DNA from: a virus
DNA: 21,071 nucleotides
Reading direction: 5' to 3' (one strand)
IMG/VR virus record: IMGVR_UViG_3300025853_000814
Coordinates: 1 to 21,071 of that record
In this document: one piece after another, positions 1,168 through 20,644 of the stretch
How the letters are laid out: each line of letters opens with the position of its first letter
How positions within the stretch are numbered: the first letter of the stretch is position 1
Notes under the pieces: generated by a model
Told to the model about the DNA's origin: nothing
Database searches by the model: none
What the model saw: only the letters and a program-made list of their open reading frames with translations
Program-made: the position numbers and the translations under genes

Positions 1168-1611
1168 CTATACTTCGTGCCATTCCTTACCCTCGAATAG
1201 TAAGGCTTCCGCATCCCTTCTTCTAATAAGTCCCTGGAGTGTCTTCCCGCCAGCCTTATTCCAGCGTTTAATTTGTGCTGGAACTTCGTCATATTTTTCT
1301 TCGTTTAAAACACGAAGCATGGTTGAACTACTTAAATTTGATGGCCCTAAATTAAAAGTCCAAGAAACTATTGCGTCATATTGATTTTGTGAAAGTGGCA
1401 CTTTTACTGCTCTGGTGACAGCTTCTTCAAACTTAGCCACGTCTTCCATTAACAATTCGTCAGCTTCTTCTTGAGTAATCTCCATATCCATAGATACACC
1501 ATGAGTAGATCCATACCCGATTGTAGGAACTCCTGCGGCGCAGTGGTATGCTTTTAATTCGCATCCTTCAAACTTTTTAATTAACGATAAACCTTCTTGT
1601 GATATTTGCAT
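1168..1611 (-). CDS. Endolysin, T4-type lysozyme (glycoside hydrolase 24)
   Basis: This muramidase cleaves host peptidoglycan at lysis. From the start MQISQEG at 1611 it is 147 aa. The catalytic cleft reads FEGCELKAYHCAAGVPTIGYG, giving Glu15, Cys24 and Thr30 in the E-8-C-5-T spacing of the family, with Cys in the place of T4 lysozyme Asp20, as in P1/P21-like lysozymes. A GGGGAG ribosome site sits 6 bases before 1611. A longer in-frame extension to 1716 would overlap the nuclease gene and adds no recognisable signal, so the shorter start was chosen. There is no SAR or signal segment, so export must depend on a holin. It starts one base after the SNase gene stops and sits with spanins, so it is part of the lysis cassette. 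Confidence 0.93.
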   Translation of the reverse strand: MQISQEGLSLIKKFEGCELKAYHCAAGVPTIGYGSTHGVSMDMEITQEEADELLMEDVAKFEEAVTRAVKVPLSQNQYDAIVSWTFNLGPSNLSSSTMLRVLNEEKYDEVPAQIKRWNKAGGKTLQGLIRRRDAEALLFEGKEWHEV

Positions 1612-1612
1612 G

Positions 1613-2008
1613 TTATTCTCCCCATACTTTAGTTTTTTTCCCACCATCATAGTCAACAGCGAGATTTTCTTTTTTAAGCAAGTCAGCAACATTTCCTTTA
1701 CTACAGAAAATATCACCTAATACTCTTCCATATTTGTCGGTGCCATAAGATTTTAATGTTATGTTGCCTACCAACCATTCTTTCATTTTTTGTTTTGCTA
1801 ATAACCCAAGCTCCTTTTCTTTTGCGCGTTCTGGATATTTTTTTATGTTGATCCTAGATTCTGGAGTGTCAATTTTGGCCACCCTTACAGACTTATTGTG
1901 TAATTTAACACTAAATCCTAGATCTATCGTTTCTAACCGAACAGTATCACCGTCTATAACTTTTTTGAGTTCACAATTATATACAAAAGCATCTGGAGTT
2001 TTACTCAT
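1613..2008 (-). CDS. Staphylococcal-nuclease-like (thermonuclease) protein
   Basis: A 131-aa SNase-fold protein. Visible family residues are the DGDTV turn at 19-23, Arg42, Asp47 and Glu50 in VRVAKIDTPES (same spacing as R35, D40 and E43 of the archetype), and a second Arg at 95 in DKYGRVLGDIF. The family hydrolyses DNA and RNA with calcium. No signal peptide is seen, so it would act in the cytoplasm, perhaps in host DNA breakdown for nucleotide salvage or viscosity reduction before lysis; that role is inferred. It overlaps the outer spanin stop by 8 bases and abuts the endolysin, so it is co-expressed with lysis genes. Length is typical of compact phage SNase proteins. Confidence 0.9.
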   Translation of the reverse strand: MSKTPDAFVYNCELKKVIDGDTVRLETIDLGFSVKLHNKSVRVAKIDTPESRINIKKYPERAKEKELGLLAKQKMKEWLVGNITLKSYGTDKYGRVLGDIFCSKGNVADLLKKENLAVDYDGGKKTKVWGE

Positions 2009-2390
2009 CTTCTTTATCCTGTTTTGTAGTTACTTTTCTATAATACACCACAACATCTTTAAGTTCAGTTATGTAGCGTTTGATTTCTTGCATGTTATAG
2101 GCCATTACTTCGTAATCTGGTATTGTCATGGCTAAAAACAATATTTCACCTTCTTGTTCTTCTATTAAAGCTAATTGTTCTTCCCAATTATCTGGTGTTA
2201 CAGCTATCCACATTGGTTCTTTTAGATCTATTTCTCTAGGCATTACTGGTTGTACTATGGTTCGGTCCATAGGCTTTGCAGTTATTTCTATTTGTTTAGT
2301 CGGAAGAAGGCTGCAACTGCAAGCCATCATCAAGATCATCAACAGTGACGCTGATTTTCTCGATGTCCTCCATAATATGCTTTGTTCCAT
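2001..2390 (-). CDS. Putative outer-membrane spanin lipoprotein (Rz1-like)
   Basis: A 129-aa predicted lipoprotein. Residues 1-23 form a short basic n-region and a hydrophobic stretch (SLLMILMMA) ending at Cys24, with Cys26 as an alternative lipidation site. The mature part is mostly polar and acidic with a Pro-containing segment near 38-65. The first 95 bases lie inside the end of the preceding gene in another frame, the classic Rz/Rz1 overlapping arrangement, and the preceding gene looks like an inner-membrane spanin. A purine-rich AAAGGAAAA lies about 9 bases before the ATG. It is longer than lambda Rz1. The spanin assignment rests on lipobox, overlap and position between holin-like genes and endolysin; no sequence family was recognised. 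Confidence 0.6.
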   Translation of the reverse strand: MEQSILWRTSRKSASLLMILMMACSCSLLPTKQIEITAKPMDRTIVQPVMPREIDLKEPMWIAVTPDNWEEQLALIEEQEGEILFLAMTIPDYEVMAYNMQEIKRYITELKDVVVYYRKVTTKQDKEDE

Positions 2391-2691
2391 TATTTATTTT
2401 CCTTTGCATTTCTTCTGGATCTGCAAGTATTTTTGCCGACAATTGATAATTTTGTATAAACTGTGTATATCTATTTAACTCTCTTTGTGCGGCTTGGCTT
2501 TTAACAGTAAGCTCATTCATTTGTTCAGTCTGTAACGCAAAATCATTTTGAAGTGATGTTATGGCTTCCTCTTGCGTTGCTATAGCGCCTTCTAATACAA
2601 GATTATTCGCAGTTAATGTTTTGTTTTCATTAAACAAATAGTAGGTTGTAAAACCTAAAAATAATATTATGCCTATAAACACTTGTTGCAT
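2296..2691 (-). CDS. Putative inner-membrane spanin (Rz-like)
   Basis: A 131-aa protein with one N-terminal membrane anchor (about residues 3-20, VFIGIILFLGFTTYYLF) followed by a long heptad-like helical region (about 22-120) rich in Gln, Asn, Glu and Leu, with no Cys. This is the architecture of an i-spanin: N-in anchor and periplasmic coiled coil that fuses inner and outer membranes with the o-spanin. Its 3' end contains the start of the lipoprotein gene in another frame. Its start shares TAATG with the stop of the gene before it. Alternative: any phage coiled-coil membrane protein, but the paired overlapping lipoprotein makes spanin the best reading. Confidence 0.65.
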   Translation of the reverse strand: MQQVFIGIILFLGFTTYYLFNENKTLTANNLVLEGAIATQEEAITSLQNDFALQTEQMNELTVKSQAAQRELNRYTQFIQNYQLSAKILADPEEMQRKINNGTKHIMEDIEKISVTVDDLDDGLQLQPSSD

Positions 2692-2930
2692 TAAATTTCC
2701 TCTATTATGTAATTAAGGCCACCTGCACTTCTGTATTCAATAATACAATCATCTTCGTCCCTAAATTTTAAGTGTTTTTCTTTTTGCACTAAAATTTTTT
2801 TGGTAATAAATGTTCGATCATCTGAGTCACCATATTCTTTGTTAAATGACACTGTCACTTTATACCTAGTTTGAAATAAAGATAAAAACCAATTAAAAAC
2901 CCATATACTTAATTTTTTTAAATTGTCCAT
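2691..2930 (-). CDS. Hypothetical 79-aa protein
   Basis: No family recognised. Residues 8-20 (SIWVFNWFLSLFQ) form an amphipathic or short membrane-associated helix; the rest is charged and beta-rich, with TRYKVTVSFNKEYGDSDD and a Lys/Glu/Asp-rich centre. It overlaps the adenylate cyclase 3' end by 13 bases and couples by TAATG to the spanin gene, so it belongs to the same operon. Its position between the sensor cyclase and the lysis genes does not by itself suggest a function. Confidence 0.75.
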   Translation of the reverse strand: MDNLKKLSIWVFNWFLSLFQTRYKVTVSFNKEYGDSDDRTFITKKILVQKEKHLKFRDEDDCIIEYRSAGGLNYIIEEI

Positions 2931-4666
2931 ATTTGTAACGCGTCTTTTTTACCTTTTACTTTAATAGGTTTTAGAGACTTTAACACAAGTTTGCAATTTT
3001 TTGCAGTTTCTTGCCCAATTAAAATATCTACACCAACTTCTTTGGTTGCCGACTCTAATCTTGCAGCTGTGTTTACAGGATCACCGATTGCCGAATAATC
3101 AAACCGAGTATCAGATCCCATATTACCAATCACTGCTACTCCCGACTGACATCCTACTCCTACCTGGACTGGAGTAGATAAAGTTTTGTTAAGCTCGGCT
3201 ATACCTTTTTGAATATCTATAGCAGCCTGGACAGCTTTTGTTTCTTGATCTTTAAGATCTAAGGGCGCTCCAAATATAAACATACCTGCGTCCCCGATAA
3301 ATTTGTCCGTCATTCCGCCAAGTTTTTGCACGGCGTTGACCTGGACTGTTAAAGTTTTATTCATTATGTCGGTGACTTCCTCTGGTGGCAGTTTTTCACT
3401 TAAAGATGTAAAACCACGAAGATCTGTAAATAAAAATGTGCAGTATTTTTTCTCGCCACCGAGTTTTAATAGATCTGGATTGTCCTGGAGCTGTTTAACT
3501 TGTCTCGGATCTAAGTAATGTTCAAACTGTTTTTTGATCTGTTGACGTAATTTAAACTGTTTTCTAAAGTTTAAATAGAAGGCAACAGCTCCTGCAATAA
3601 ATTGTGATACGAAAGTCCATGAAAAATCTATTAAATAGCCTTTTTGCACGCTAAAAAACTCTGAGAAAGCCGCTGTGATAAGTAAAATTACAGCTATACT
3701 TACACCCTTGGTTATACCGAGATAATTGATTACAAGCCACGTCAGCGACACAAATATTGCAAAAATTAAAATTTCGGCCGCTAAATGCCAATCTGGGATT
3801 TGTGGAGAGTTTTGTATCAAAATTGACTCAGATAATGCTGCTTGAATCTTGTGAGGTTCTAATAAACCGACTGGGGTTGCAATTTGTGGTTGGATTCCTG
3901 CGGCGGTAATTCCGATAAATACAAATTTACCAGCAACATTCATTTCTTCTAAATTTGTTTCTGGTGTTTTTACCCAGCTGATCCATTTTCTTCCAAAATT
4001 ATCTGTAGGTATTGGTGGCAATCCTCTGACTGCAATTTCTTGTATGCCATTTTCATTCGTGGTAATAATATAGCTTCTGGTTTCAGTTAATACTTTTAAA
4101 ACTTCTGTGCCAAAAGAAGAAACATAGCCGTCTGGTGTTTTTAATAATAATGGTATTCGTCTTACCAGGTTGTCTATGTCAACTGGTGCAGTAGCTATAC
4201 CTTGATTTGCATTATTTTGTAGTATGTTGATATTTTGTACTACACCTGGAGTAAGCATACCACCAACGTCATTACCTTTTATAATTGTTCCTGTAGTTTT
4301 TGGATATTTACCATTGTCATTTTCAAACATTGCTAACACAGAAGGTGCATATCCGAGTGTTTGTGCGAATACCTCGTCACCGCCCATTCTGTCTGCTTGT
4401 GGAAAAGCTATTACCCATCCAACTCCCATAGCTCCTGCATTAATAAGATCTATTTGTATTTGTGCGAGAGTTTGACGCGGAAAGGGCCAGCCACCTTCTT
4501 TTGCTACATCTTCTTCTGTAATATTTAAAACGACAAAATTACCAGAAGGTTCTTGTTCTGCAACCAGTGCATCAAATATTTTTAGTTTAAGTATTTCTGT
4601 CGGTGTTGATTGAAACACCAAAGGTAAAATTAGTATTATAAGTATAGGTAATAATAGTCTTTTCAT
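2918..4666 (-). CDS. CHASE2-domain class III adenylate cyclase
   Basis: A 582-aa membrane cyclase predicted to make cAMP from ATP. Order: N-terminal membrane helix 4-19; periplasmic CHASE2 sensor about 25-285; three membrane helices near 295-316, 320-340 and 345-366; a short linker helix; cytoplasmic cyclase domain about 405-580. Catalytic residues are visible: metal-binding Asp415 (FTDLRGFT) and Asp459 (FIGDAGMFIFG), Lys455 for adenine recognition, Ser525 in the partner position, and the transition-state pair Asn532/Arg536 (VNTAARLES). Nothing essential appears lost, so it is probably active. It couples through TAATG to the FecR-domain gene just upstream. The sensor ligand is unknown. A full CHASE2 cyclase is exceptional cargo for a phage; the identification itself is strong. 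Confidence 0.95.
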   Translation of the reverse strand: MKRLLLPILIILILPLVFQSTPTEILKLKIFDALVAEQEPSGNFVVLNITEEDVAKEGGWPFPRQTLAQIQIDLINAGAMGVGWVIAFPQADRMGGDEVFAQTLGYAPSVLAMFENDNGKYPKTTGTIIKGNDVGGMLTPGVVQNINILQNNANQGIATAPVDIDNLVRRIPLLLKTPDGYVSSFGTEVLKVLTETRSYIITTNENGIQEIAVRGLPPIPTDNFGRKWISWVKTPETNLEEMNVAGKFVFIGITAAGIQPQIATPVGLLEPHKIQAALSESILIQNSPQIPDWHLAAEILIFAIFVSLTWLVINYLGITKGVSIAVILLITAAFSEFFSVQKGYLIDFSWTFVSQFIAGAVAFYLNFRKQFKLRQQIKKQFEHYLDPRQVKQLQDNPDLLKLGGEKKYCTFLFTDLRGFTSLSEKLPPEEVTDIMNKTLTVQVNAVQKLGGMTDKFIGDAGMFIFGAPLDLKDQETKAVQAAIDIQKGIAELNKTLSTPVQVGVGCQSGVAVIGNMGSDTRFDYSAIGDPVNTAARLESATKEVGVDILIGQETAKNCKLVLKSLKPIKVKGKKDALQIWTI

Positions 4667-5790
4667 TAATTACTCTGCGTTATTTTAATTGTAGAGTCAG
4701 ATCCACCGTTTACTCTCACAACATTTGATTTACCATCTTGTATAAAAATGACGGTATATGATCCGCCGCCGTCTATATCAACACGAGCAGAGCCGCTAAC
4801 ATTCCTTCGTAAACTTACAACCTGGCCTGTAACAATAGTTGTAATCTGCGTTTCTGTGTCCTGGCCTATTGCTGTACCAGCAATCTTAATACTAGTGGCT
4901 TGCTGTAACTGATCTTCTTCCTCTTGCACTTCTAAAGCATCTAAAACATTAAGCATATCTTCTAAAAAATTAACATCCAGGTAGTTTATATCTAGCTCTG
5001 TAAAAGTTAGATCTTCACCTAAAAAATCTTCTGCCAAGTAATCTACATCTAAGTCATTAAAATCTAAAACATTGTTTTGTTTTGCAGATACTTGTGCGTC
5101 GCTTATTTGTTCTTTTTCTTCTGGTGGAGTAACGATAAGCATGTTATCAAGCATTTCTAAACTAAGATCTAATATTACTGGTTTGCTTGGATTGCTTTCA
5201 AAAACTGAAATAGTTGTTGCCTGGAAAGGTTTGTTTAATAACACAGATCCTGTGGCAGTAATTACTTCAATCTCACCACTTGATAAACCGAGAGCATCTG
5301 GAAGTAACACTATAAGACTTTTGCCCAATTCGTCCACCGTAACCGAAAAATCTGTTCCTCTAATCGCGATGTTTGCAGTCGGTGTTTTTAGCTTTATGTT
5401 TTGCTTATCTATACGGTTTAGGTTGCCAGTTATAAACCTAGCTGTACCAAGTCCAAAAGTAAGGGCCATTTTAGACTTAGATGGATCTGGATCAAAAATA
5501 TACTCGTCTACAATTAGCTGACTATGCTCGGTCAGTCGGACCGTACTATCATCTAAAAAAGTTATGGCCATGCGGCCGTTGTTTGTTATAGCCTCATCGT
5601 TTTGCTGAATAGCAAACTGTATCTCTGCTGGATAGGCTTGATCTCTAACGATTTGTGCTTGGCCGTTAAGCTCAGATATATCGCCTATATCAGCAGCTTG
5701 TGCTTGTGCCTTGGTCGTTTTGAATGACACAAACAGTAGAAGTATTACTGCCTGTATTGTTGGATATAGATATGATCTTAAGCCAGTCAT
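4666..5790 (-). CDS. Exported FecR-domain protein with acidic repeat tract
   Basis: A 374-aa protein with a signal peptide (hydrophobic 12-24, likely cleavage after an AQA motif near 30-32) and a FecR-type beta domain at about 40-155, ending in the hallmark TANIAIRGTDFSV (139-150). A segment near 240-300 is rich in Asp, Glu, Leu and Tyr and repeats the pattern DxDYL/DINYL/DVNFL. The C-terminus is beta-rich with Gly and Ser. No lipobox or TonB-related partner was seen, so it is likely a periplasmic or surface sensor/scaffold rather than the iron-citrate regulator. The start at 5790 lies 101 bases inside the curlin-like gene and is needed to give the signal peptide; no Shine-Dalgarno is visible there, so translation is probably coupled. 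It is linked to the CHASE2 cyclase by TAATG. Confidence 0.88.
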   Translation of the reverse strand: MTGLRSYLYPTIQAVILLLFVSFKTTKAQAQAADIGDISELNGQAQIVRDQAYPAEIQFAIQQNDEAITNNGRMAITFLDDSTVRLTEHSQLIVDEYIFDPDPSKSKMALTFGLGTARFITGNLNRIDKQNIKLKTPTANIAIRGTDFSVTVDELGKSLIVLLPDALGLSSGEIEVITATGSVLLNKPFQATTISVFESNPSKPVILDLSLEMLDNMLIVTPPEEKEQISDAQVSAKQNNVLDFNDLDVDYLAEDFLGEDLTFTELDINYLDVNFLEDMLNVLDALEVQEEEDQLQQATSIKIAGTAIGQDTETQITTIVTGQVVSLRRNVSGSARVDIDGGGSYTVIFIQDGKSNVVRVNGGSDSTIKITQSN

Positions 5791-6427
5791 TGTCTTGGGT
5801 ACTCAATTGTTGCACGTTAAAGGTCATATTATTACCTGTTTGATCTAAATAAAAATAACCGCCTGCATATCCAGAACCAGTGAAATTAACAGTGTTCGAG
5901 TTTCCGTCGATGTCCATATAATTTGTGGCTCCGTCATAGTTAATATTACTAGTGACTTGGTTTCCAGTACCGTTAATTATCCAATCAAGATCAAGTGTAG
6001 CAGCAAGTGCAGTTGTGCCGTGGTTAAGGGTAAAGGTGTTAGTGCTACCAGTTACATCGACGTTATAATTTGAGTTATCAATACCGTAGGTGTTTGTAGG
6101 ATCGCCTTGTATTGTAAAAGTATTGCTATCGCCATCAAACTCAAAAAATCCTGTTACGTTATCTCCCCATATATCTCCAAGAAATTTATTGGTATCACCG
6201 ATTTGATTTATGTCAAGCGTAAAAGCATTTCCGTCTAAGTCGAAAGGGGTTAGGGATCCAGCTGAGGATAAGAGTCCTCCTATAATATTGCCAGAGCCAA
6301 GCTGTTCTAAATCTATGTTTACAGTGGTACCAGATTGATCTATGAAGATTTCATTATCAGCCGCGTATGCTGGCGATACAATCAACATCATTATCATCGC
6401 AAGGTTTATCAATTTTAATTTCTTCAT
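5690..6427 (-). CDS. Curlin-like secreted repeat protein
   Basis: A 245-aa exported protein, the probable substrate of the neighbouring CsgG/CsgF. Starting at MKKLKLINLAM it has a clean signal peptide with cleavage after SPAYA (about residue 22). The mature chain is rich in Asn, Thr, Asp and Gly and has about eight to ten irregular repeats of alternating strand residues, e.g. NAFTLDINQIGDTNK, SNTFTIQGDPTN and SNTVNFTGSG, like the N/Q-G spaced strand-loop units of curlins. Two cysteines close the protein (about 233 and 245). A longer in-frame start at 6469 only adds a segment ahead of the signal peptide. Its 5' end overlaps csgG by 71 bases and its 3' end overlaps the FecR gene by 101 bases. 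It could be a minor or nucleating subunit; assembly into fibres is inference. Confidence 0.82.
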   Translation of the reverse strand: MKKLKLINLAMIMMLIVSPAYAADNEIFIDQSGTTVNIDLEQLGSGNIIGGLLSSAGSLTPFDLDGNAFTLDINQIGDTNKFLGDIWGDNVTGFFEFDGDSNTFTIQGDPTNTYGIDNSNYNVDVTGSTNTFTLNHGTTALAATLDLDWIINGTGNQVTSNINYDGATNYMDIDGNSNTVNFTGSGYAGGYFYLDQTGNNMTFNVQQLSTQDNDWLKIISISNNTGSNTSTVCVIQNDQGTSTSC

Positions 6428-7238
6428 GCTTCCAAAATCTCCTGTCGTAGCCGACTTTAATAAGCTCAACCACTGCTGCTTCTATTGATTTCATCAAAGC
6501 AATAGTAGTGCTCTCGTTACGCGCTGATCCGATTTCTAATTCCACAAGTTCCGTTCCAGACTCATAAAATTTGAAGACATCGTTTGATCTTCCGTAACTA
6601 TAAATGGTTTTTTGGCTTAAAACTTCTATAAGAATTTCACCAGTTGCGACTGAAACCATCCGCAAACTAACGCTTACGGTATCTTCTCGATATTGCGCAC
6701 TACCAGACACACCGAGAAAGCGGGCACCAGCGCCACCACTTTTTAAGTTTGTATCATAGCTTATCACAGATCCTTCGAGCAAGACACCTGCAAACAGCAG
6801 TGGTGGTACATTCTTTTCTTCACCCTCTTTTGCAAACTGTTCTCTTGCTGAACGTATAAGCTGTCTCTCTTTTACAAGGTTATCTAGGCCCACACGCTCA
6901 ACTACACGAAAAAACTCACCGTTAGACGCATGCTTTAGTGCTCGTATAAGTAAAGTGCTTGGCTGTTGAGTTATGGCCGTGCTAAATAAAGCAAACTCGC
7001 TGTTGCTTTTTCTTTGTCCAGTTTGATCAGTAAAAGCAGTTGCATAAACAGCTACTACTGGCTGTACTTCTGGTTTTTGTATATTTTTTAATTCTTCTGA
7101 TTGTAAAGAAAAAATACTTGCTTCTGTTAATCCTTTACTTGGAAACCTTTGTGCAAAGGTATCTTCTTGAACATCGACTATAGCGCAACTAGAAAGTAAA
7201 AGAACCAATAGGAAGGGTAATTTCTGTAATGTTGCCAT
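6357..7238 (-). CDS. csgG: CsgG-family curli secretion pore lipoprotein
   Basis: A 293-aa outer-membrane channel protein of the curli (type VIII) secretion system. Signal peptide with lipobox LSSC puts lipidation at Cys18. Conserved CsgG stretches are visible: AVYATAFTDQTGQ, FSTAITQQPSTLLIRAL, FFRVVERVGLDNLVKERQ, SYDTNLKSGGAGARFLG, VSLRMVSVATGEIL and a C-terminal YDRRFW. Against E. coli CsgG, the constriction Phe56 appears retained (FSTAI), while Tyr51 and Asn55 are replaced and one residue is inserted; this is a by-eye alignment. Length matches the family. It overlaps csgF by 50 bases and the curlin-like gene by 71. A GGAT ribosome site precedes the ATG. No CsgE, CsgC, CsgB or CsgD homologue is seen nearby. 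Confidence 0.96.
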   Translation of the reverse strand: MATLQKLPFLLVLLLSSCAIVDVQEDTFAQRFPSKGLTEASIFSLQSEELKNIQKPEVQPVVAVYATAFTDQTGQRKSNSEFALFSTAITQQPSTLLIRALKHASNGEFFRVVERVGLDNLVKERQLIRSAREQFAKEGEEKNVPPLLFAGVLLEGSVISYDTNLKSGGAGARFLGVSGSAQYREDTVSVSLRMVSVATGEILIEVLSQKTIYSYGRSNDVFKFYESGTELVELEIGSARNESTTIALMKSIEAAVVELIKVGYDRRFWKHEEIKIDKPCDDNDVDCIASIRG

Positions 7239-7692
7239 CGGGATCCGTTATTTTTAAAGTTATAAATTGTCCATCGCTAGTGTAAGTTATTATATTACCT
7301 TCTAGCTCAATAGTCCCAGATGTAGAGGCTGTATCTCCAAAGAGGTTTTCTACTAGCTGTCTTGAAAGCTGTGCATATATTCTGGACTCCAGGTTACGAA
7401 TGAATCTAGCTAAAGTTGTGTTTTCTTTATCACGCTCTATTTGCTCTTGTAGTGCCTTTATTTCTTCTTTTATGGACATTTTACGATTAAACTCTTGGTT
7501 CTCAATCGTAAGATAGTGACTAGAAGTTCCGATACCAGAAAATGAAGGTGACTTAAATTTATGAACTATCTGGTCAGCTGCAATGTTTTGCACAAATACG
7601 CCAAAAAACAAAACAAAGCCTATAGCAACTAGAATTTGTATTGTAAAAAGTTTTTCTGCTTCTTCTTTTTTATTTTTTTCTTTGTATATCAT
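7189..7692 (-). CDS. csgF: CsgF-family curli assembly factor
   Basis: A 167-aa partner of the CsgG pore that caps or extends the channel at the surface and couples fibre growth to export. The CsgF fingerprint is visible: after the signal segment, FKSPSFSGIGTSSHYLTIENQ matches the pore-binding N-terminus (FRNPNFGGNP in E. coli). Further along come FIRNLESRIYAQLSRQLVENLFG and a C-terminal strand domain with ITYTSDGQFITLKITDPDGN. The membrane/signal helix is at about 15-37, with predicted cleavage after IAA. It differs from the enterobacterial protein in a long charged n-region (KEKNKKEEAEK) and an extra charged helix near 72-92. No Shine-Dalgarno is visible; the start lies 23 bases inside the upstream gene, which argues for coupling. 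Confidence 0.92.
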   Translation of the reverse strand: MIYKEKNKKEEAEKLFTIQILVAIGFVLFFGVFVQNIAADQIVHKFKSPSFSGIGTSSHYLTIENQEFNRKMSIKEEIKALQEQIERDKENTTLARFIRNLESRIYAQLSRQLVENLFGDTASTSGTIELEGNIITYTSDGQFITLKITDPDGNITEITLPIGSFTF

Positions 7693-7927
7693 CTTTTTTT
7701 TGTTGTCTGATTTTAGTTACAGTATCAACCTTCTCTTTTAATCGTATCATATCCTGGTCTAAAAGTCGTAGCTGGTCCGTCAACCTAATAATAGTCTTTT
7801 TCATTTCACTTATAGATGGATCTATGGTGTTGTTAATAGTTTGCCAAACATAGAACACAAAATATCCCAGGCCAATTACCATTACAGTTGGAAAACCAAA
7901 TTTTTGTATTAAATCAACTATTTCCAT
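7670..7927 (-). CDS. Small single-pass membrane protein with coiled coil (paralogue B)
   Basis: An 85-aa protein with one membrane helix at about 13-32 (FPTVMVIGLGYFVFYVWQTI) and a charged coiled-coil tail ending in a Lys/Arg-rich segment, KIRQQKKDDIQRKK. It resembles the preceding 98-aa protein: short leader, G-P turn, helix ending GYF.F, then an Asn-Asn and an Ile-rich coil. The two look like a tandem duplication. It couples by TAATG to that gene and overlaps csgF by 23 bases, so it may be an accessory of the curli module or a holin/antiholin-type lysis protein. No family recognised. Confidence 0.75.
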   Translation of the reverse strand: MEIVDLIQKFGFPTVMVIGLGYFVFYVWQTINNTIDPSISEMKKTIIRLTDQLRLLDQDMIRLKEKVDTVTKIRQQKKDDIQRKK

Positions 7928-8223
7928 TAATCGCGTCTAGCATCAATCTTGCCGTCTTCAACAAAGTTTTCTGCTCTAGCGATTCGTTCAAGATCTGGAG
8001 GTATGTCAAGCGCACTTGACACTACTGTATCGATTCTAATAATGTCGTTGTTCATTATTGAGGCTCTAGTAATAAGCATTTTTGTAATGCCCTGGATAGA
8101 TTTAATGTCAGATACTAGATTATTCATAAGCTGTCTGATTATAAGAAATATAAAATATCCCATAATCAAGCCGCTTGCGATTGGTAGGCCTACGTCGCCG
8201 ATCAAGCCTATGGCTTGGTTCAT
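7927..8223 (-). CDS. Small single-pass membrane protein with coiled coil (paralogue A)
   Basis: A 98-aa protein with one membrane helix at about 13-33 (LPIASGLIMGYFIFLIIRQL) and a polar helical tail ending in acidic and Arg residues. It is similar in layout and in several positions to the 85-aa product that follows it. It is joined to both neighbours by TAATG overlaps (at 8223 and 7927), so the genes are probably translated in series. Role unknown; a membrane-bound oligomerising accessory of lysis or of the curli module is possible. Confidence 0.75.
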   Translation of the reverse strand: MNQAIGLIGDVGLPIASGLIMGYFIFLIIRQLMNNLVSDIKSIQGITKMLITRASIMNNDIIRIDTVVSSALDIPPDLERIARAENFVEDGKIDARRD

Positions 8224-8609
8224 TATTTATCTTCGCCTTTAAACCCTTTACTTTGTCCAGATTTACCCGAATAAACTCCAAAGACAACACCCATAGCACC
8301 TACAACAACTGAGACTAATGCTGATTGTTCTAGGTTAGGATCTGGCAGGTTCATAAACCAAATAACAGACTCATACATAAGATAAATATAAACCACAACA
8401 AATATCCTAGGAAATATTCTCCAGGCATCTATTGCTCTAGCTAAGTGAATTACTTTTTGCCAGGGGTTTATATTTGTTTCGTCTTCTAAGTCTCTAATTT
8501 TTTCTTTTAGCTCACCAATTTCTTGAATCATAGACATGAACTTGTTTAGATCCATTTCTACTTCATTACGATCCATGTCTCCGCCAAATCTTCCGCTTCC
8601 TTCGTGCAT
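8223..8609 (-). CDS. Two-helix membrane protein, putative holin
   Basis: A 128-aa protein from the start MHEGSGRFGG at 8609. Residues 19-45 form a predicted coiled coil. WRIFPRIFVVVYIYLMYESV at about 63-82 is the first membrane helix, and 96-113 (QSALVSVVVGAMGVVFGVY) the second, followed by a Lys/Gly-rich tail. Two helices with a basic cytoplasmic tail next to lysis genes fit a holin. The start at 8609 shares TAATG with the upstream stop and has a GAGG about 8 bases ahead; an ATG at 8663 is in frame but would overlap the previous gene. The holin role is inferred from topology and place, and the genes at 8609-8791 and 8972-9142 are competing candidates. Confidence 0.6.
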   Translation of the reverse strand: MHEGSGRFGGDMDRNEVEMDLNKFMSMIQEIGELKEKIRDLEDETNINPWQKVIHLARAIDAWRIFPRIFVVVYIYLMYESVIWFMNLPDPNLEQSALVSVVVGAMGVVFGVYSGKSGQSKGFKGEDK

Positions 8610-8791
8610 TATATAAACCTCGCTAGTATTACTGCTCCAACTATAAATGGGTAAACGGCCCATATCATGTTTTCTAATTTATCAAAACGCTTAGATCCGT
8701 CTTCTAATCTTTTATCAATACTTTTATACAAAGCCTTACACTCTCTTTCGTGAGACTCTATTGCATTGAGCGCATCTTTTACTGTAGCCAT
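8609..8791 (-). CDS. Small tail-anchored membrane protein
   Basis: A 60-aa protein: a charged helical N-terminal half (DALNAIESHERECKALYKSI and onward to about residue 42) and one C-terminal membrane helix (MIWAVYPFIVGAVILARFI). It starts at the TAATG that ends the previous gene and ends at the TAATG that begins the putative holin. Tail-anchored proteins of this size next to a holin can act as partner or antiholin, but no family was recognised and the role is open. Confidence 0.7.
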   Translation of the reverse strand: MATVKDALNAIESHERECKALYKSIDKRLEDGSKRFDKLENMIWAVYPFIVGAVILARFI

Positions 8792-8979
8792 TATTCGTTA
8801 TTGTCGATAGATACCTTTGCAGGCCTACCTCTTTTTTTTCTTACTGTTGTGTAAGCCTCATTAACATCTGGAGTCGATTTATCATCTGCAACATAATGGC
8901 CTTTTTTATTTCTTGATCTGACTTTTACACGCTCAGTGCCTGTTACTTTATCCCAAAAATTTGACCACCAGCTACTCAT
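8791..8979 (-). CDS. Small basic protein with AT-hook-like motif
   Basis: A 62-aa hydrophilic protein. It begins with a Trp-rich segment (SSWWSNFWDKV) and has an AT-hook-like core RKKRGRPAK at about 47-55, which in other proteins sits in the minor groove of AT-rich DNA. An AAGGA site precedes the ATG. The 5' end overlaps the 56-aa gene by 8 bases and the 3' end couples by TAATG to the next gene. DNA binding is suggested only by the short motif; it could equally be a virion component. Confidence 0.65.
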   Translation of the reverse strand: MSSWWSNFWDKVTGTERVKVRSRNKKGHYVADDKSTPDVNEAYTTVRKKRGRPAKVSIDNNE

Positions 8980-9661: not shown

Positions 9662-12600
9662 TTATTCTCCTTTTAAAATTGTAATTTCTTGTTTTAATTG
9701 GTCTACTGTTGTAGACAGCTCTTTCACTGCGTTTATTAAGTACCAAGTTAGATTATCAGCGTTTACAGTTTTTACTCCTGAAGATTCTATTGTAATTATT
9801 TCAGGTAAAACTTTTTCTATTTCTTGAGCTATAACACCAAGTTGTATACCTTCTTTTTTTACAGCTAAATTACTTGGTAATTCTGTTACCTCATCTTCAG
9901 TTCTATATTCAAAATTTCTTACTTGGATATCTTTGAGTTTATTTAAACCTTCATTGTTATCTACAATATTCTTTTTAATTCTTTTATCAGAAGTTTGTAA
10001 AAAAGAAGTTCCGTTTGTAGCTTGGTAAATACCACCACCACCAGGCGGGTAGATTTTTCCTGTATTATTTCCTTGTCCAGAAACAGCGTTTCCTATAACT
10101 AACTCAGAAACACCACTACTACTAACATTAGCTTCTTTACCTATAAGAATACAACTGCTACCAGTTGTTAATGCATTTCCTGAGTTGTAACCTACTGCTG
10201 TATTATTAGAACCTGTAGTTACATATTGAATTGCACCTACGCCCATACCAGTATTATCAGTACCTGTAGTACATCGTCTAAGAGCTTCTGTGCCAAAGGC
10301 TGCATTATCATTACCTGTTGTTACTTCGTTTAAAGTAAAGTAACCAAATCCATTGTTACTTTCACCAGTAGTATTAGCTGAACAAGTATTTGAACCATAT
10401 GCTGTTGCACCATGATATGTACTTACAGTTAAACAATTTTGACCAACAGCAGTGCTAGAAAAGAAAGCGTGGCTGCTTCTTAAAGCATTTATCCCAACAG
10501 CAGTATTATTTTGACCATTGGTTCCTGCAATTGACATACCAGCTTCCATACCAAAACAAGTATTACCAGAACCTGTATCAAACTGTCCACCAGCATTGAA
10601 TCCCATAATTGTATTGTTACCACCAGTGGTAATAGCATCACCTGCTATTGAACCTACTATAGTGTTTTGAATACCAGTGGTTAAAAGTCTTGCGGCATGA
10701 TAACCAACAGCAACATTATTCATATCTACATTACCGCTTGGATTTTGTGTAAACAATGCATTTGTGCCTACTGCTGTAGACTGATCTCCAGCCACGTTAG
10801 CTCCTAAAGCACCAGAGCCTATTGAAACATTTGAAACACCAGTTGTGTTAGCGTCAAGACACACATATCCGATAGCTACATTTTCTTCACCTGTCGTGTT
10901 AGATGTTAGAGAGTCAGAACCTATGGCTATGTTATAAGCACCAGTCGTATTAGCATCTAACGATTGAGCACCTAATGCTGTATTGTCAGCACCAGTCGTA
11001 TTAGCTCCTAGTGCCGCATAACCCATTGCTGTATTGTTGCTACCCGTTGTATTAGCGTCTAATGAAAAAGCACCAAAAGCATTATTTCTAGTACCTGTAG
11101 TCAATGCAGCCAATGCTGTATGACCAAATGCTGATTGATAAGACTCAGTACAGTTTGTCATAGCACCATAGCCAACAGCAGTATTAAAACTTGCTGATGT
11201 ACCTGCATCTAAAGCATTTTGACCAACTGCTGTATTTTGAGCACCAGTTGTATTTGCTCCCATAGCACCTTGTCCGATAGCTGTGTTGTCGTCACCCGTT
11301 GTATTAGCGTCAAGGGCTACATCACCAACAGCTACGTTTCTGTTTCCAGTAGTGCTATTGTGCATTGATTGATAACCAACAGCAGTGTTTTCAGCTCCAG
11401 TCGTATTACTTGTAAGTGAGTTAAAACCTAAAGCTGAGTTTCTACTAGCTGTTGTATTAGCATCAAGAGCATTTGCACCAACAGCAACATTATTTGTACC
11501 AGATGTATTGACATGTAAAGCCTTATATCCAACACCAGTATTATTAGATGCTGTTGTTTGAACAGTCATTACAGCATGTCCTATACCTGTATTGTTAGAA
11601 CCCGTTGTTATTGCATCAAGTGTCAATGCACCTAATGCAGCATTAAAAGAAGCTGTAGTGTTTGCTGCTAAAGCTGAATAACCAACAGCAACATTATACT
11701 CACCAGTTGTGTTTGAAGTTAAAGATGAACGACCTAATGCTGAGTTAAAGGTACCAGTGGTGTTAGATTCCATTGATGCTTGACCAACTGCTGTATTATA
11801 GTGAGCAGTAGTATTAGCTGTTAATGCTCCACCACCGATAGCTACATTGGCATTACCAGTTGTGTTTGCATCAAGAGCTAAAGAACCAACAGCTACGTTT
11901 GTATTACCTGTAGTGTTTGATAATAAAGAGTGTTTACCGATTGCTGTATTATTGTCAGCAGTTGTATTAGCTTCTAAAGAACTTCTACCAATAGCTACGT
12001 TAGAACTACCAGTAGTATTAGCAGTTAAAGAATAAGAACCTATCGCTACATTTTGTACGCCTGTAGTTAATTTAGTAAGTGATTGAAAGCCAACGCCTGT
12101 ATTTTCATCACCCTCTGTTAAATCATCAAAAACTTCCCAACCTAAACCTGTATTATTAGAAGCAGTAGATAAAGTACCTGTACCTGCATCATTACTAATA
12201 AGTATGCTGTTTGCAAAGTTTGTTATATTAGAAGATATACCTACGCCATTGATTGTGCTTGAACCTGTAATAGCTCCATCTACTTGTAAAGTAGAAGCCA
12301 TATCTACAGCACCATCTATATCTACTACATCTAGGTTAGTAGTACCATCTACGTCTATATCGCCTGAGATGTCTAGTGAGGTTGCTGTTAAAACTCCAGT
12401 TACGCCTAAAGTACCACCAACAGTCATATCGTCAGTTACAGTTAAATCGTCTTGTACTTTTAAATCTACTACGTTAAGACTAGCAAAAGCGTCAACGACT
12501 GCTGCTCCAGATCCTGCTCCGTCTGAGTAAACTACTTTTACATCCCCTGGTGGAATAGTAATGTTAGCTCCACTACCTTGAGAAATTATTATATTTTGAG

Positions 12601-12898
12601 ATCCAGATGTGCCATTTTCAATAAACCACATTTTACTAACGGTGTTAGGGCCAATAGTAATAGTACAAGCTGAGTCAAGTGTTCCTGTATATTTTAAATA
12701 TAAAGATCTGCCTGGATCTGTGGATCCGTCTGCAATTGTTGTTGTGTGTGTATCAGCATTAGTTGTTATAGCCTCGGTGCCAAAACTAAATGCTTCTGCG
12801 ATTAATTCTAAATTGGTGTTGGTTTCCGTACCCCAAGTACCACTGGATTCACCAGTGCCAATTTCTTTTAATCTTAAATCGTTTACATAGGTTGCCAT
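9662..12898 (-). CDS. Tail fibre/adhesin with about 40 repeats and S74 chaperone end
   Basis: A 1078-aa host-recognition fibre. Residues 1-110 (from MATYVNDLRLKEIGTGESSG) look like a virion-attachment and beta-rich head region, and 130-260 is a Val/Asp/Thr-rich beta shaft. From about 263 to 937 come some 40 tandem 17-residue repeats of the form NTAVGxxALxxNTTGxx, reminiscent of trimeric autotransporter head repeats and expected to form a trimeric beta roll. The end carries a Peptidase_S74 intramolecular chaperone, starting near 971 (SDKRIKKN) with LGVIAQEIEKVLPEI, which trims and trimerises fibres, then a coiled coil. A GAGG site precedes the ATG. The repeat part is almost free of GATC, unlike its neighbours. 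No frameshift is seen. Confidence 0.93.
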   Translation of the reverse strand: MATYVNDLRLKEIGTGESSGTWGTETNTNLELIAEAFSFGTEAITTNADTHTTTIADGSTDPGRSLYLKYTGTLDSACTITIGPNTVSKMWFIENGTSGSQNIIISQGSGANITIPPGDVKVVYSDGAGSGAAVVDAFASLNVVDLKVQDDLTVTDDMTVGGTLGVTGVLTATSLDISGDIDVDGTTNLDVVDIDGAVDMASTLQVDGAITGSSTINGVGISSNITNFANSILISNDAGTGTLSTASNNTGLGWEVFDDLTEGDENTGVGFQSLTKLTTGVQNVAIGSYSLTANTTGSSNVAIGRSSLEANTTADNNTAIGKHSLLSNTTGNTNVAVGSLALDANTTGNANVAIGGGALTANTTAHYNTAVGQASMESNTTGTFNSALGRSSLTSNTTGEYNVAVGYSALAANTTASFNAALGALTLDAITTGSNNTGIGHAVMTVQTTASNNTGVGYKALHVNTSGTNNVAVGANALDANTTASRNSALGFNSLTSNTTGAENTAVGYQSMHNSTTGNRNVAVGDVALDANTTGDDNTAIGQGAMGANTTGAQNTAVGQNALDAGTSASFNTAVGYGAMTNCTESYQSAFGHTALAALTTGTRNNAFGAFSLDANTTGSNNTAMGYAALGANTTGADNTALGAQSLDANTTGAYNIAIGSDSLTSNTTGEENVAIGYVCLDANTTGVSNVSIGSGALGANVAGDQSTAVGTNALFTQNPSGNVDMNNVAVGYHAARLLTTGIQNTIVGSIAGDAITTGGNNTIMGFNAGGQFDTGSGNTCFGMEAGMSIAGTNGQNNTAVGINALRSSHAFFSSTAVGQNCLTVSTYHGATAYGSNTCSANTTGESNNGFGYFTLNEVTTGNDNAAFGTEALRRCTTGTDNTGMGVGAIQYVTTGSNNTAVGYNSGNALTTGSSCILIGKEANVSSSGVSELVIGNAVSGQGNNTGKIYPPGGGGIYQATNGTSFLQTSDKRIKKNIVDNNEGLNKLKDIQVRNFEYRTEDEVTELPSNLAVKKEGIQLGVIAQEIEKVLPEIITIESSGVKTVNADNLTWYLINAVKELSTTVDQLKQEITILKGE
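10085..12108 (-). repeat. About 40 tandem 51-bp repeats in the tail fibre gene
   Basis: The DNA repeats with a 51-base period, each unit encoding 17 residues with N-T/V-A-V/I-G at the start and T-T-G near the end. Copies are diverged but keep blocks such as accagt(t/c)gtatta and caacagc. The last few units toward 10085 are less regular. Such arrays change length by slippage or recombination, altering fibre length and perhaps receptor choice. Confidence 0.9.
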
Positions 12899-13797: not shown

Positions 13798-15138
13798 TTA
13801 TTCTACCTCGAATATATCTACATCATTAGGGTTGTAGTTTTTTGTAAATTTTTGTAAACTATTGTTGATGGAAAAATTTGATACATTATATTTTGCGTGG
13901 GAAGATGGTCCTGCTGTATTAGCACCAGTCGGTGACGGAGATCTGGGATATTTTATATCTCCAGGTAAGTCTGATTGGACACTAGCAGAGCCAAGCCAAG
14001 TTGCAGACTTTTTCGTCGACGGCTCAAAAATATCTAAAGACGCATTTGAAAAAACATTTGGTGTCATTGGAGCCGATCTTCCAGAACTTCCAGCTGTAAC
14101 ATAACCACCACTAGCAAACTTTTTAACTTCTGGTACATAAAAATCTGGATCTATTTGATTTCTTGCGTTTCCAAAAACATCACCCATGCCTTTTTGTAAG
14201 GCCTCACCTTTAAGTCTTATGTCTCTGCCTATTGTTTGTAATTCTTTTGAATCTGTTGGCATGCCTTTCGGGAATAAAGATCTAAATTCTTCATATAAAA
14301 CGTGCGCTTCGTCTGAGGCTCTCCACATAGGAGCTGTAATAATACCCACCTCTGCAACTAACTTTTCACCGTTAGCTCCAACAAATTGAATATTTAGTTT
14401 GCGGTCAACAAAACCTTCTGGCTTAATGTCGCGGCCTTTATCAAAGAGTTTGTATTGGTTTTTCATAAGATCTACAACAGCTTCTTCTTCGGCTGGTGTA
14501 TTAACCACAATTCTAGTTCTAATCGGATCTGTTAGCTGAGTAACATCTTTGTCGTATTTTTTTCTGGACTTTTCTACCATCCTGGGTATTTTTTTCACAG
14601 TACCAAGTTTTTGGCCCGTAGCTGCATCAATTTTAGTCGTCATTTCTGGAAGAGTGGTTTCGAGATTTAAACTTTTTGCAATATCGTCTATTTGTTGATT
14701 AAACTCTGGAGCTAAACGAACAGCTCGATCATACATCTTATTTGCATCACCTAAAGGATTGCCTGTATATAGATCTTCCTGGTGTCTTGTTATTTCGTAT
14801 CGAGGATTGTTGCTAGGTAAACTTTGAATACCTTTTTTTAAAGGCTGTTTGGCTAGGTTGGCCAGCTCACCAACTAAGGGTACAGCTGCGAGTCCAGATA
14901 ACGCCGCGATACCAAGATTACCAAATCCACTGCCAATATTACCTTGTGAAAAATCTTTAAAAGAATCACGGCCATATTTACCAGCTGCGGCAATATCCAT
15001 GGCCATACCTGGAGGAGTAAAGCCAGCAGCTATTTGGCCGAGTAGAGGTACGTTTTCCTCGTAGCCTTCAACCGCTCGATCTAACAGATCTTTGTCAGCT
15101 GCACCGCCTTGTTGGAATATGTCAATATCTTGATACAT
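13798..15138 (-). CDS. Protein with a RelA/SpoT-like nucleotidyltransferase domain
   Basis: A 446-aa protein. Residues 33-95 are Gly/Ala-rich and hydrophobic (FTPPGMAMDIAAAGKYGRDS and an ALSGLAAVPLVG stretch), as in proteins ejected with phage DNA. Residues 145-290 resemble a divergent RelA/SpoT synthetase fold: DPIRTRIVV at 204-212 (place of the metal-binding DIxGxR strand), EGFVDRKLNIQF at 241-252, then AEVGIITAPMWRASDEAHVLYEE at 262-284, like the EIQxxT...H.LYE segment. The canonical GYRSxH segment is absent, so activity (ppGpp-like transfer versus a toxin or binding role) is uncertain. The C-terminal 100 residues are Ser/Pro/Gly-rich and probably disordered. It lies between the recombinase and tail genes. 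Confidence 0.6.
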   Translation of the reverse strand: MYQDIDIFQQGGAADKDLLDRAVEGYEENVPLLGQIAAGFTPPGMAMDIAAAGKYGRDSFKDFSQGNIGSGFGNLGIAALSGLAAVPLVGELANLAKQPLKKGIQSLPSNNPRYEITRHQEDLYTGNPLGDANKMYDRAVRLAPEFNQQIDDIAKSLNLETTLPEMTTKIDAATGQKLGTVKKIPRMVEKSRKKYDKDVTQLTDPIRTRIVVNTPAEEEAVVDLMKNQYKLFDKGRDIKPEGFVDRKLNIQFVGANGEKLVAEVGIITAPMWRASDEAHVLYEEFRSLFPKGMPTDSKELQTIGRDIRLKGEALQKGMGDVFGNARNQIDPDFYVPEVKKFASGGYVTAGSSGRSAPMTPNVFSNASLDIFEPSTKKSATWLGSASVQSDLPGDIKYPRSPSPTGANTAGPSSHAKYNVSNFSINNSLQKFTKNYNPNDVDIFEVE

Positions 15139-15144
15139 TCCATG

Positions 15145-15172
15145 ATTATAACTAAATCTCTAGGATTTTCTA
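15145..15172 (-). promoter_or_regulatory. Candidate promoter before the RelA/SpoT-like gene
   Basis: On the minus strand, a perfect TATAAT lies at 15150-15145, with a weaker TAGAAA 16 bases upstream as a -35. The start codon (15138) is only 6 bases past the -10, so a transcript starting here would be leaderless or nearly so. A second possibility is that the sequence is a chance AT-rich match. Confidence 0.3.
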
Positions 15173-15958
15173 TTCGTGGAGGCCTTGGAATTTTCTTTTG
15201 AGGATTCTTTGGACTTTGTGATACGGGAAGTCCTCGTATCCAGCGTGTGAACTTTGGATCTGAGTAGCTATCTTCCTGGCACCTAGGCCTTGATCTCTGA
15301 GCGCTTTAATATGTCTTAGCACTGCTTGCTCCTCTGGTACTGGCACTAGTTTAGTTCTTCTTCTGCTACCAGATTCGTCGTATTCTTTTCTATAGCCAAA
15401 AGGTGTCTTGCCACCGATCGAGTAACCTTTTTCTGCGTAGACCAGCTTGCCACCGTTGAGCCTGGACATAATCATTTCTCTCTCGATTTCAGCGAACTGC
15501 GCCATGTTAGTCACTAGGTTTTGGTTAGCTATCCTGGTCATATTCATTTTTGCTGCTAGACCAGATTGTTCTTTTTGCTTAGGCAGGACCACTGGTATGT
15601 CTGCAAACATATCGCAGAAGTAAAGTGTGATCCCAGTTTCCTCAAGCGTAGGAATCATGTTAACCATTTCTAAAAAGGATCTTGCAAGCCTGTCGAGCTT
15701 GGTTGCTACTATCACGTCGTTAGCATCCATGGTATCAGTCAGCTCTCTGGATCCTGGCCTTTCGAGTAATGGCTTCATGCCACTTATACCAGCGTCGGTA
15801 AAGAACTGATCGACTTTCCTACCGCCGTATTTGTTGGCCACAAACTCTTCAATCGACTTCTTTTGCTCCTCTAGGGAAGATCCATCCCTGGCCTGCTGCT
15901 CAGATGATACTCTGATATAGCCGTAGATATTGTTTACTTGTTTTCTTGGTTCAATCAT
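15170..15958 (-). CDS. Serine recombinase (resolvase/integrase family)
   Basis: A 262-aa site-specific recombinase. The N-terminal catalytic domain (about 10-155) has YGYIRVSSEQQ with the nucleophile Ser18, the ISGMKPLLERPG loop, and DVIVATKLDRLARSF carrying the DRLxR arginines. Residues 170-255 form a Recombinase-type/DNA-binding region (GYSIGGKTPFGYRKEYDESG, then a helix-turn-helix-like segment). It is longer than small resolvases and much shorter than large serine integrases. An AAGGAG site precedes the ATG, and it overlaps the previous small gene by 8 bases. It may act in integration, genome resolution or inversion; no att or res site was located. A temperate life cycle is a possibility, not a conclusion. 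Confidence 0.92.
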   Translation of the reverse strand: MIEPRKQVNNIYGYIRVSSEQQARDGSSLEEQKKSIEEFVANKYGGRKVDQFFTDAGISGMKPLLERPGSRELTDTMDANDVIVATKLDRLARSFLEMVNMIPTLEETGITLYFCDMFADIPVVLPKQKEQSGLAAKMNMTRIANQNLVTNMAQFAEIEREMIMSRLNGGKLVYAEKGYSIGGKTPFGYRKEYDESGSRRRTKLVPVPEEQAVLRHIKALRDQGLGARKIATQIQSSHAGYEDFPYHKVQRILKRKFQGLHE

Positions 15959-19009: not shown

Positions 19010-20644
19010 CTATTTTATAGAGCCAACACCTTTATCATTATCTTCGGTATTATCGTCAATAGTAAGAGCTGCAATGCCACCAGCGCCTGCGACGGGAGTT
19101 ATAGAAAACATCTGGTCTTTAAATTTCTGCCTGGCTTTGGTTTTTAAAAAGTCAGTTTCGATATCGCTTTCTATTACTTTCAGTCCGCGTTTTTCCAGAA
19201 TATCAATTACTTCTTTGCTAGTCCTGGGCGGTACTATTGCGCCAGCAAATTCTTCAAAGCCAACAGCTCGCATGGGTTTGGCTTCTAGGTATTCGACATT
19301 TCGTTCGGCGTTTTTTTTGAACACCTCGGTTAAATTATCAACTATTTGTTTTTGTTTTTGTGGAACAATGTCATCAAGCAAAGGAGTGAGAGTATTTTGC
19401 ACGGCGCTTCGTATATCTTTGCCATCTTCAAGAGCATAACCAACGCCAAGCATAATGTCCTCTGTATCAAAATATTTATCTGTGCCATCTAGTGATGATT
19501 CAAGAGCATCATATACATCGCCCTCTAAATCTGAATGCATAGGCTGATTGCCTTCGATTCTAGATCTTTGGCTTTTTATATCTTCAAGATCTGTCATTTT
19601 TTCGGTCATAAGTGCGCGTAGTCTGTTTGATCCAAATGTTCCTATGCCACCCTCGCCACCACGCTGCGTTTCTTTGATCATGTTTTCAGTTGCATTTTCT
19701 AGGGTGTAAGGTTTTGTAACCATAGTTTCCTCAAAATCATCAAAGTATGTAAATACACCTTCCTGGCTTAGATATTTGTCTTTTTCTTTTGCTACCCAAT
19801 CACGATATTTGCGTTCTGGAAATCTTGGTTTGGGTAAACCAATATCATTAATAAAATCTTTGGGATCTAGGTTTTGATCTTTAAGAAATTTCTTTCTTGC
19901 TACAGTGGTGTTAGTAAAAAAACTATCAAAACTGTCTGAGCTGTTTTCTAAAATTGTTGCACCTCTGTTTTTTTTGAGTTTTTCTAAGTTTTCTATTGCA
20001 AGTTCTTGCAGACCTCCAGCTTTTCCCTCTTTGATAAAATCTTTATAGTCTTTTTTAATTTTATCTACGGCATTATCTTTTGCTAGGCGTATTTTTTTCG
20101 GTGCTCTAGGTGTGTAAGCATCGGCAGAATAAACCGCGTTTCGCGGATCTACAGCGGGATCGAAATTTTTTGGCTTGGCGATCAGTTGTATCTGGCCAAA
20201 TCCTTTAAGTGGCACATCGGCAGGTTGAACCGCTAAACTTGGAGACGGGATTCCTCCCATCTGGTCGAAACTTTTTATAGCATCCTCAGAGGTATTATGC
20301 ACAAACATCATGTCTTTTGGCTGGTCTAGGGATCCTACGCCTTTTTTGGCTGCCTGTTTTCCAATCGCTAGGGTTCCTTTGACAGCTGTACCAGCTGGTC
20401 CCAGAGCATCAAGTGATGATAAAGCCATGCCGAGTTTATCGTTGTCGTATTTGGCTATCTCTCCAGATAGAAACGGAACAAATTGAGCTATGCCTTTAAG
20501 CGTATCGCGGCGACGCGAGGCAGGTGAGGGAACCATTGGCCTAGTGAAGTAGGAAGCGAGTGGTCCAGGTGCATTTATTTGTGGCGGAAGAATAGCACCT
20601 ACGTCTTGGGTAGTGTCGAATACGTTTATGCCGTCGGGTTCCAT
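19010..20644 (-). CDS. Large polyvalent-type phage protein
   Basis: A 544-aa protein. Residues 113-181 (MFVHNTSEDAIKSFDQMGGI, SPSLAVQPADVPLKGFGQIQLI and a DAYTPRAP end) match a domain I know from large multi-domain proteins of phages and plasmids that are co-injected with DNA. A later block around 445-490 (FAGAIVPPRTSKEVIDILEK RG) is another typical piece. The middle is helical and charged; the end has a hydrophobic Gly/Ala stretch (SITPVAGAGGIAALTI). The N-terminal layout (a Gly/Ala segment with LGPAGTAVKG) recalls the 446-aa RelA/SpoT-like protein. No catalytic motif is recognised. Likely a virion or ejected host-interaction protein. No Shine-Dalgarno is seen at the start. Confidence 0.6.
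   Translation of the reverse strand: MEPDGINVFDTTQDVGAILPPQINAPGPLASYFTRPMVPSPASRRRDTLKGIAQFVPFLSGEIAKYDNDKLGMALSSLDALGPAGTAVKGTLAIGKQAAKKGVGSLDQPKDMMFVHNTSEDAIKSFDQMGGIPSPSLAVQPADVPLKGFGQIQLIAKPKNFDPAVDPRNAVYSADAYTPRAPKKIRLAKDNAVDKIKKDYKDFIKEGKAGGLQELAIENLEKLKKNRGATILENSSDSFDSFFTNTTVARKKFLKDQNLDPKDFINDIGLPKPRFPERKYRDWVAKEKDKYLSQEGVFTYFDDFEETMVTKPYTLENATENMIKETQRGGEGGIGTFGSNRLRALMTEKMTDLEDIKSQRSRIEGNQPMHSDLEGDVYDALESSLDGTDKYFDTEDIMLGVGYALEDGKDIRSAVQNTLTPLLDDIVPQKQKQIVDNLTEVFKKNAERNVEYLEAKPMRAVGFEEFAGAIVPPRTSKEVIDILEKRGLKVIESDIETDFLKTKARQKFKDQMFSITPVAGAGGIAALTIDDNTEDNDKGVGSIK

Follow-up and report, generated by a model that had tools for sequence, protein, structure and literature searches.

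The window considered in the current analysis (the whole stretch of 21,071 nucleotides) is a 21-kb linear virus record with all genes encoded on the minus strand. A group of genes related to the curli export system has been identified in it, and the transcribed order of the region is p56, p62, p60, p146, p98, p85, CsgF, CsgG, curlin-like, FecR, CHASE2-cyclase, p79, Rz, Rz1, SNase, lysozyme and TerL. From p98 through Rz1 every gene overlaps or abuts its successor. The features are as follows.

8223-8663, minus strand: p146, a two-TM protein that is still in place where the module is absent
7927-8223, minus strand: p98, 98 aa with a single TM and a coiled coil, first gene of the module (phrog_18771)
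7670-7927, minus strand: p85, 85 aa, a paralogue of p98
7189-7692, minus strand: CsgF, with a signal peptide and an FKSPSFSG segment (PF10614)
6357-7238, minus strand: CsgG, the outer-membrane secretion pore lipoprotein, with an LLSSC lipobox and Cys18 (PF03783)
5690-6427, minus strand: curlin-like protein, secreted, with degenerate repeats and a predicted beta-solenoid, the presumed export substrate
4666-5790, minus strand: periplasmic protein with a FecR domain and a signal peptide of its own (PF04773, 2e-10)
2918-4666, minus strand: CHASE2 - class III adenylate cyclase, its set of catalytic residues complete (PF05226, PF00211)
2691-2930, minus strand: p79, 79 aa, adjoining the cyclase in some relatives
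2296-2691, minus strand: Rz inner-membrane spanin (phrog_739, 5.7e-11), a neighbour outside the module
2001-2390, minus strand: Rz1 lipoprotein spanin (phrog_812, 1.6e-10), overlapping Rz, a neighbour outside the module
1168-1611, minus strand: GH24 lysozyme / endolysin (PF00959, 3e-49), a neighbour outside the module

An earlier sequence-only reading had placed a curli export module at 5690-7692. The module is indeed present, and its extent was drawn too small, as it reaches 2918 on one side, with FecR and the cyclase, and 8223 on the other, with p98 and p85. CsgG, CsgF, FecR, CHASE2 and the cyclase pass the Pfam cut-offs, and PHROGs families exist for phage CsgG (phrog_20175), CsgF (phrog_35372), FecR (phrog_37870) and cyclase (phrog_35576). 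Promoter-like sites are no more frequent than in shuffled sequences and hence no operon boundary has been drawn from them.

The phage setting of the module is borne out by the terminase, tail fibre, spanins and lysozyme encoded on the same contig, which rule out a bacterial island. TerL is 58-61% identical to those of HTVC023P, HTVC027P and 023Pt_psg01, and the terminase comparison places the phage nearest to the HTVC023P-type group. A near-identical locus occurs on a contig (L050) filed under a Pelagibacter MAG; this contig, on which an ORF of 828 aa comes after TerL, is itself of phage origin. SAR11 is the likely host of the phage.

Other large proteins are encoded elsewhere in the window. 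A fibre of 1078 aa (9662-12898) is rich in NTTG..N..IG repeats and carries an S74 chaperone domain at its C-terminus. It diverges far more rapidly than the curli genes do, dN/dS reaching 0.5 in comparisons with near relatives. A serine recombinase of the resolvase/integrase-like type (15170-15958), retained in a few close relatives, lies upstream of the tail-fibre region. Two large proteins (13798-15138 and 19010-20644) have enzyme-like domains: RelA/SpoT is matched weakly (E 0.0017, which falls below the cut-off), PBECR5 with an E of 1.2e-19. Both could be virion proteins that bear effector domains.

The CsgG and CsgF signatures that had been recognised by eye hold in the profile searches. 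CsgG matches PF03783 with an E-value of 4.5e-48 (163.8 bits, cut-off 20.8) and the solved E. coli CsgG in the PDB with an E-value of 4e-40, while CsgF matches PF10614 with an E-value of 2.7e-16 (60.4 bits, cut-off 25.8). CsgG has the features of a lipoprotein, namely the LLSSC lipobox with a Cys18 that is invariant across phage and bacterial CsgG. The constriction residues Y51 and N55 of E. coli CsgG are not conserved in the phage protein, which is 44-48% identical to CsgG of HTVC008M and Melnitz. In the CsgG tree, phage and bacterial sequences are split by a branch with 100/98 support; the split alone is used here, the root being meaningless owing to a mis-trimmed row (L055). A CsgG homologue is also encoded in a 1499-bp record named Salmonella phage S.Kent 1-2-1 (OR851715.1), and this is possibly host DNA and not a phage gene.

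The mature CsgF N-terminus starts DQIVHKFKSPSFSG, in register with the mature N-terminus of E. coli CsgF. P49, F51 and G53 are invariant in the alignment of phage and bacterial CsgF, and the conserved FKSPSFSG segment matches the CsgG-anchoring segment of the E. coli protein. CsgF is anchored on CsgG in E. coli by F24, F26 and F31 (PMC10133297); the phage protein retains the equivalents of F26 and F31 and has His in place of F24. By its sequence, CsgF has kept part of its CsgG-anchoring segment. The two proteins have been suggested to act independently in Melnitz; the F26/F31 equivalents together with the invariant P49, F51 and G53 favour a retained complex of CsgG and CsgF. A search of the PDB with the CsgF sequence found no relative, and the structural model (pTM 0.29) gives no useful fold match; its pair of long helices and its beta-meander at the C-terminus agree with the published Melnitz model. 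In some relatives (L021:9490-10050, L102:678-1256) an AT-hook-like KKRGRPSKAEL motif lies ahead of the signal/TM segment of CsgF, and p62 of the window (8791-8979) has KKRGRPAK close to its C-terminus.

No match to the CsgE gate has been found among the window proteins scanned, and no CsgD gene in the window. CsgE is not taken as defining type VIII secretion here because pelagiphages are reported to be likewise devoid of it (PMC9599517).

The third protein of the module bears a signal peptide and strand repeats, as the sequence-only reading had noted, and the repeats are of a degenerate G-x-x-N / Q-x-G kind. Its gene most probably starts with the ATG at 6427 and not with the TTG at 6469. It has 8 GxxN motifs against 3.4 expected from shuffling (P 0.012). 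The expectation that all three proteins would answer to their family models held for CsgG and CsgF and failed for this one, which has no match to Curlin_rpt of Pfam. A profile of its family nevertheless leads to a bacterial curlin bearing 9 Curlin_rpt matches (4e-9, with composition bias) and is also linked to the curlins of the myophages, among which Melnitz has a second, bona fide curlin. AlphaFold2, run on input from which rows taken from database records were omitted, predicts a beta-solenoid with a mean pLDDT of 80.6. The structures matched by this model are of the general beta-helix type; the CsgA fibril of E. coli is among them, with a Z of 10.8 and an rmsd of 8.8 over 109 residues, and unrelated beta-helices score higher. 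A sequence search of the PDB returned antibody-like chance matches only. The predicted fold is compatible with a curlin and is not a proof of one.

The module also encodes a FecR-domain protein followed by a cyclase with CHASE2 (PF05226, 3.6e-29) and catalytic (PF00211, 9.1e-18) domains. The cyclase has the residues of a CHASE2 class III adenylate cyclase, D415, K455, D459, N532 and R536, the first three being invariant in 72/72 cyclases and the other two nearly so. In the alignment its Lys is paired with Ser/Thr as in the adenylate cyclase CyaB, and not with the Glu of 2w01. The phage FecR has a signal-peptide-like N-terminus, unlike the cytoplasmic anti-sigma N-terminus of FecR in FecIRA systems, and no match to FecI or FecA has been found among the window proteins scanned. 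In 30 alphaproteobacterial genomes, FecR lies within 3 kb upstream and on the same strand of 10 of the 76 CHASE2 genes, against about 0.1 expected by rough arithmetic from genome sizes and FecR counts. A cluster of CHASE2-cyclase, FecR, phosphodiesterase and TPR has been described in Campylobacterota (PMC9239204). Because of this pairing in bacteria, the signal-peptide-like FecR and the lack of FecI and FecA, the two proteins are read as a pair signalling from the periplasm to cAMP. They look like an imported bacterial signalling pair and not a device of iron regulation, and the whole module looks like curli export joined to this pair.

The genes p98 and p85, which had been taken as holin-like flanking genes, behave as parts of the module. 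The two are paralogues, each with a single TM helix and a coiled coil, and have a related conserved motif (ALDNRVKTMNxDxIRID in p98, ALIDRIRxLDNDxIRL in p85). A tblastn search of 50,697 phage records finds their homologues in HTVC008M and the Melnitz strains alone, where they precede csgF within the csg block; in these phages the csg genes lie away from the lysis genes. HTVC023P, HTVC027P and 023Pt_psg01 have no homologues of p98/p85. Where the module is gone p98 and p85 are gone as well, though the lysis genes stay. A role as holins was rejected on this distribution, in which they occur in phages only beside csgF and are missing where lysis genes persist, the sole PHROG holin match being a weak one (p85, E=0.001). 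They are parts of the csg module. With its two TM segments and its persistence where the module is absent, p146 is the better holin candidate. Neither p98 (98 aa) nor p85 (85 aa) has a Pfam or NCBIfam match to HisKA or HATPase domains. A short and paralogous 'HK', sometimes two, has been placed ahead of csgF in pelagiphages (PMC9599517), and p98/p85 are probably this 'histidine kinase', as judged from position and description.

The order of the genes is constant in about 90 podophage-type loci. Among the IMG/VR loci with enough flank, which are related and were selected by CsgG so that the counts are not independent, CsgF is found in 89/89, the curlin-like protein in 85/85, FecR in 77/77, the cyclase in 60/60 and p98 or p85 in 75/75. 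CsgF, CsgG, the curlin-like protein, FecR and the cyclase are under purifying selection, with dN/dS of about 0.03-0.34 against the two nearest relatives. The complete order p98-p85-CsgF-CsgG-curlin-FecR-cyclase is also seen on contigs assigned to a Rhodobacteraceae bin (L052) and a Flavobacteriaceae bin (L051), with a CsgG that groups with those of the myophages; these are probably mis-binned phage contigs.

Rz, Rz1 and the GH24 lysozyme lie downstream of the module, as had been noted before. A search with TerL reveals relatives both with and without the module: of the 23 loci in which 6.5 kb or more is available upstream of TerL, 16 carry it and 7 do not. The module-less relatives, with TerL 91% identical, retain the spanins and the lysozyme. 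In the 7 loci p56-p62-p60-p146 and Rz-Rz1-lysozyme-TerL are kept, and p98 through p79 are replaced by three other genes, as follows.

X1: about 375 aa, signal peptide, Asn/Thr-rich
X2: about 750 aa, signal peptide
X3: about 125 aa, TM coiled coil
X1-X2-X3 cassette: L253:4875-8579, in the slot of the curli module; also in L230, L231, L234, L238, L244, L254 and L255

X2 occurs in 16 loci, with csg genes in 0/16 of them; it has no match in phage records and no Pfam domain over cut-off. The loci with X1-X2-X3 form one close group and may reflect a single replacement. The csg block is a swappable cassette that adjoins the lysis genes and is not itself one of them. Adjacency to lysis genes is a feature of this lineage only.

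These observations do not sustain the earlier view of a lysis cassette as a functional unit. A CsgG/CsgF pore that forms late in the outer membrane, depolarises or weakens the envelope and times lysis has been proposed for Melnitz (PMC9004378), and in the present lineage the module does continue, with overlapping reading frames, into the genes for the spanins and the lysozyme, and in 40 of the 44 loci with flank the lysozyme is no more than 2.5 kb away. We consider such a role unlikely, as the modules of HTVC008M and Melnitz have no annotated lysis gene nearby, the close relatives described above keep their lysis genes in its absence, and a lysis aid leaves the conserved export substrate, FecR and the cyclase unexplained; a part in lysis is possible, but nothing requires it. 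Still less probable is an open CsgG channel admitting larger nutrients or siderophores, as suggested in PMC7029224 and PMC9599517. The missing CsgE gate gene and the FecR domain would fit such an uptake pore, but CsgF and the curlin-like substrate are always retained in loci with enough flank, and the signal-peptide-like N-terminus of FecR and the lack of FecI and FecA among the window proteins scanned speak against it.

The explanation that we regard as probable is phage type VIII secretion, by which the module would export the curlin-like protein to the surface of the infected cell. Late in infection CsgG and CsgF would form an outer-membrane channel passing the curlin-like protein to the surface, where it could alter the surface so that cells adhere, clump or shut out other phages. 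FecR and the CHASE2-cyclase would report envelope or export status from the periplasm to the cytoplasm as cAMP, and p98/p85 would be inner-membrane accessories of the export system and not lysis holins. The family matches, the constant gene set, the same order in HTVC008M and Melnitz, the low dN/dS, the invariant cyclase residues, the anchor residues of CsgF and the FecR-CHASE2 pairing of bacteria argue for this explanation. It is weakened by the failure of Curlin_rpt, by beta-helices that match as well as or better than CsgA, by the missing CsgE, by the changes at Y51/N55 and F24, and by infected Melnitz cells, in which no clumping was seen (PMC9004378). The substrate exported by CsgG might instead be a non-amyloid, monomeric beta-helix protein serving as an adhesin or decoy at the surface, to which the degenerate repeats, the absent Curlin_rpt match and the general beta-helix proteins among the best structural matches would point; the profile link to bacterial and myophage curlins and the second curlin of Melnitz make this improbable. 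Export of a fibre by the module is plausible.

The system itself is not new, contrary to the novelty first claimed for the complete module. CsgF and CsgG were first found in pelagimyophages (PMC7029224) and then in Melnitz, with a pinholin-like or secretin-like pore proposed (PMC9004378). Full sets with FecR and cyclase, in the order HK-CsgF-CsgG-CsgA/B-FecR-(CsgA/B)-cyclase, have been published from HTVC023P-type podophages and pelagimyophages and are ocean-wide and transcribed (PMC9599517). The module of the window is this pelagiphage-type system, complete apart from CsgE. It shares with the HTVC023P-type systems the gene order with FecR and cyclase, and the terminases are related; the 'HK' slot is occupied in the window by membrane coiled-coil proteins of 85-98 aa without a kinase domain, the optional second CsgA/B is absent, and FecR, taken there as an iron regulator, is read here as the partner of the CHASE2-cyclase. 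The synteny extends beyond the podophage-type loci to the myophages HTVC008M and Melnitz, where p98-p85-CsgF-CsgG-curlin-FecR-curlin2-cyclase differs from the window in the second curlin (PMC7029224, PMC9004378) and, unlike in the window, lies away from annotated lysis genes. Bacterial curli operons (csgBA/csgDEFG and the alphaproteobacterial csgFG-curlin) have CsgF, CsgG and a secreted repeat protein in common with the window. True curli CsgG is present in only 6 of the 385 alphaproteobacterial genomes sampled, and none of these six csg loci has FecR, CHASE2 or p98/p85 around csgFG. Conversely, the FecR/CHASE2-cyclase pairs of alphaproteobacteria and Campylobacterota (PMC9239204) have the FecR gene shortly before the cyclase as in the window, and among the genomes examined they adjoin no curli genes. 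Three details are new: p98/p85 belong to the module, one cassette is exchanged for another at the locus, and FecR and CHASE2 are read as a pair.

The locus between p146 and the spanins could be a dedicated slot for interchangeable surface-protein cassettes, holding either a curli system that has its own cAMP feedback through FecR-CHASE2 or a pair of secreted proteins, one Asn/Thr-rich and its partner of 750 aa. We put this forward tentatively, as possible but rather doubtful; if true, phages would generally remodel the host surface late in infection, by means of parts that can be exchanged. The 'holin' and 'kinase' genes as parts of the module, a swap that spares the lysis genes and the FecR-CHASE2-cyclase pair offer specific hypotheses open to testing, as alternatives to iron sensing or lysis timing. 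The module is common across ocean viruses (PMC9599517). As curli are reportedly absent from SAR11-type hosts, the phage would supply the infected SAR11-type cell with a wholly new surface organelle.
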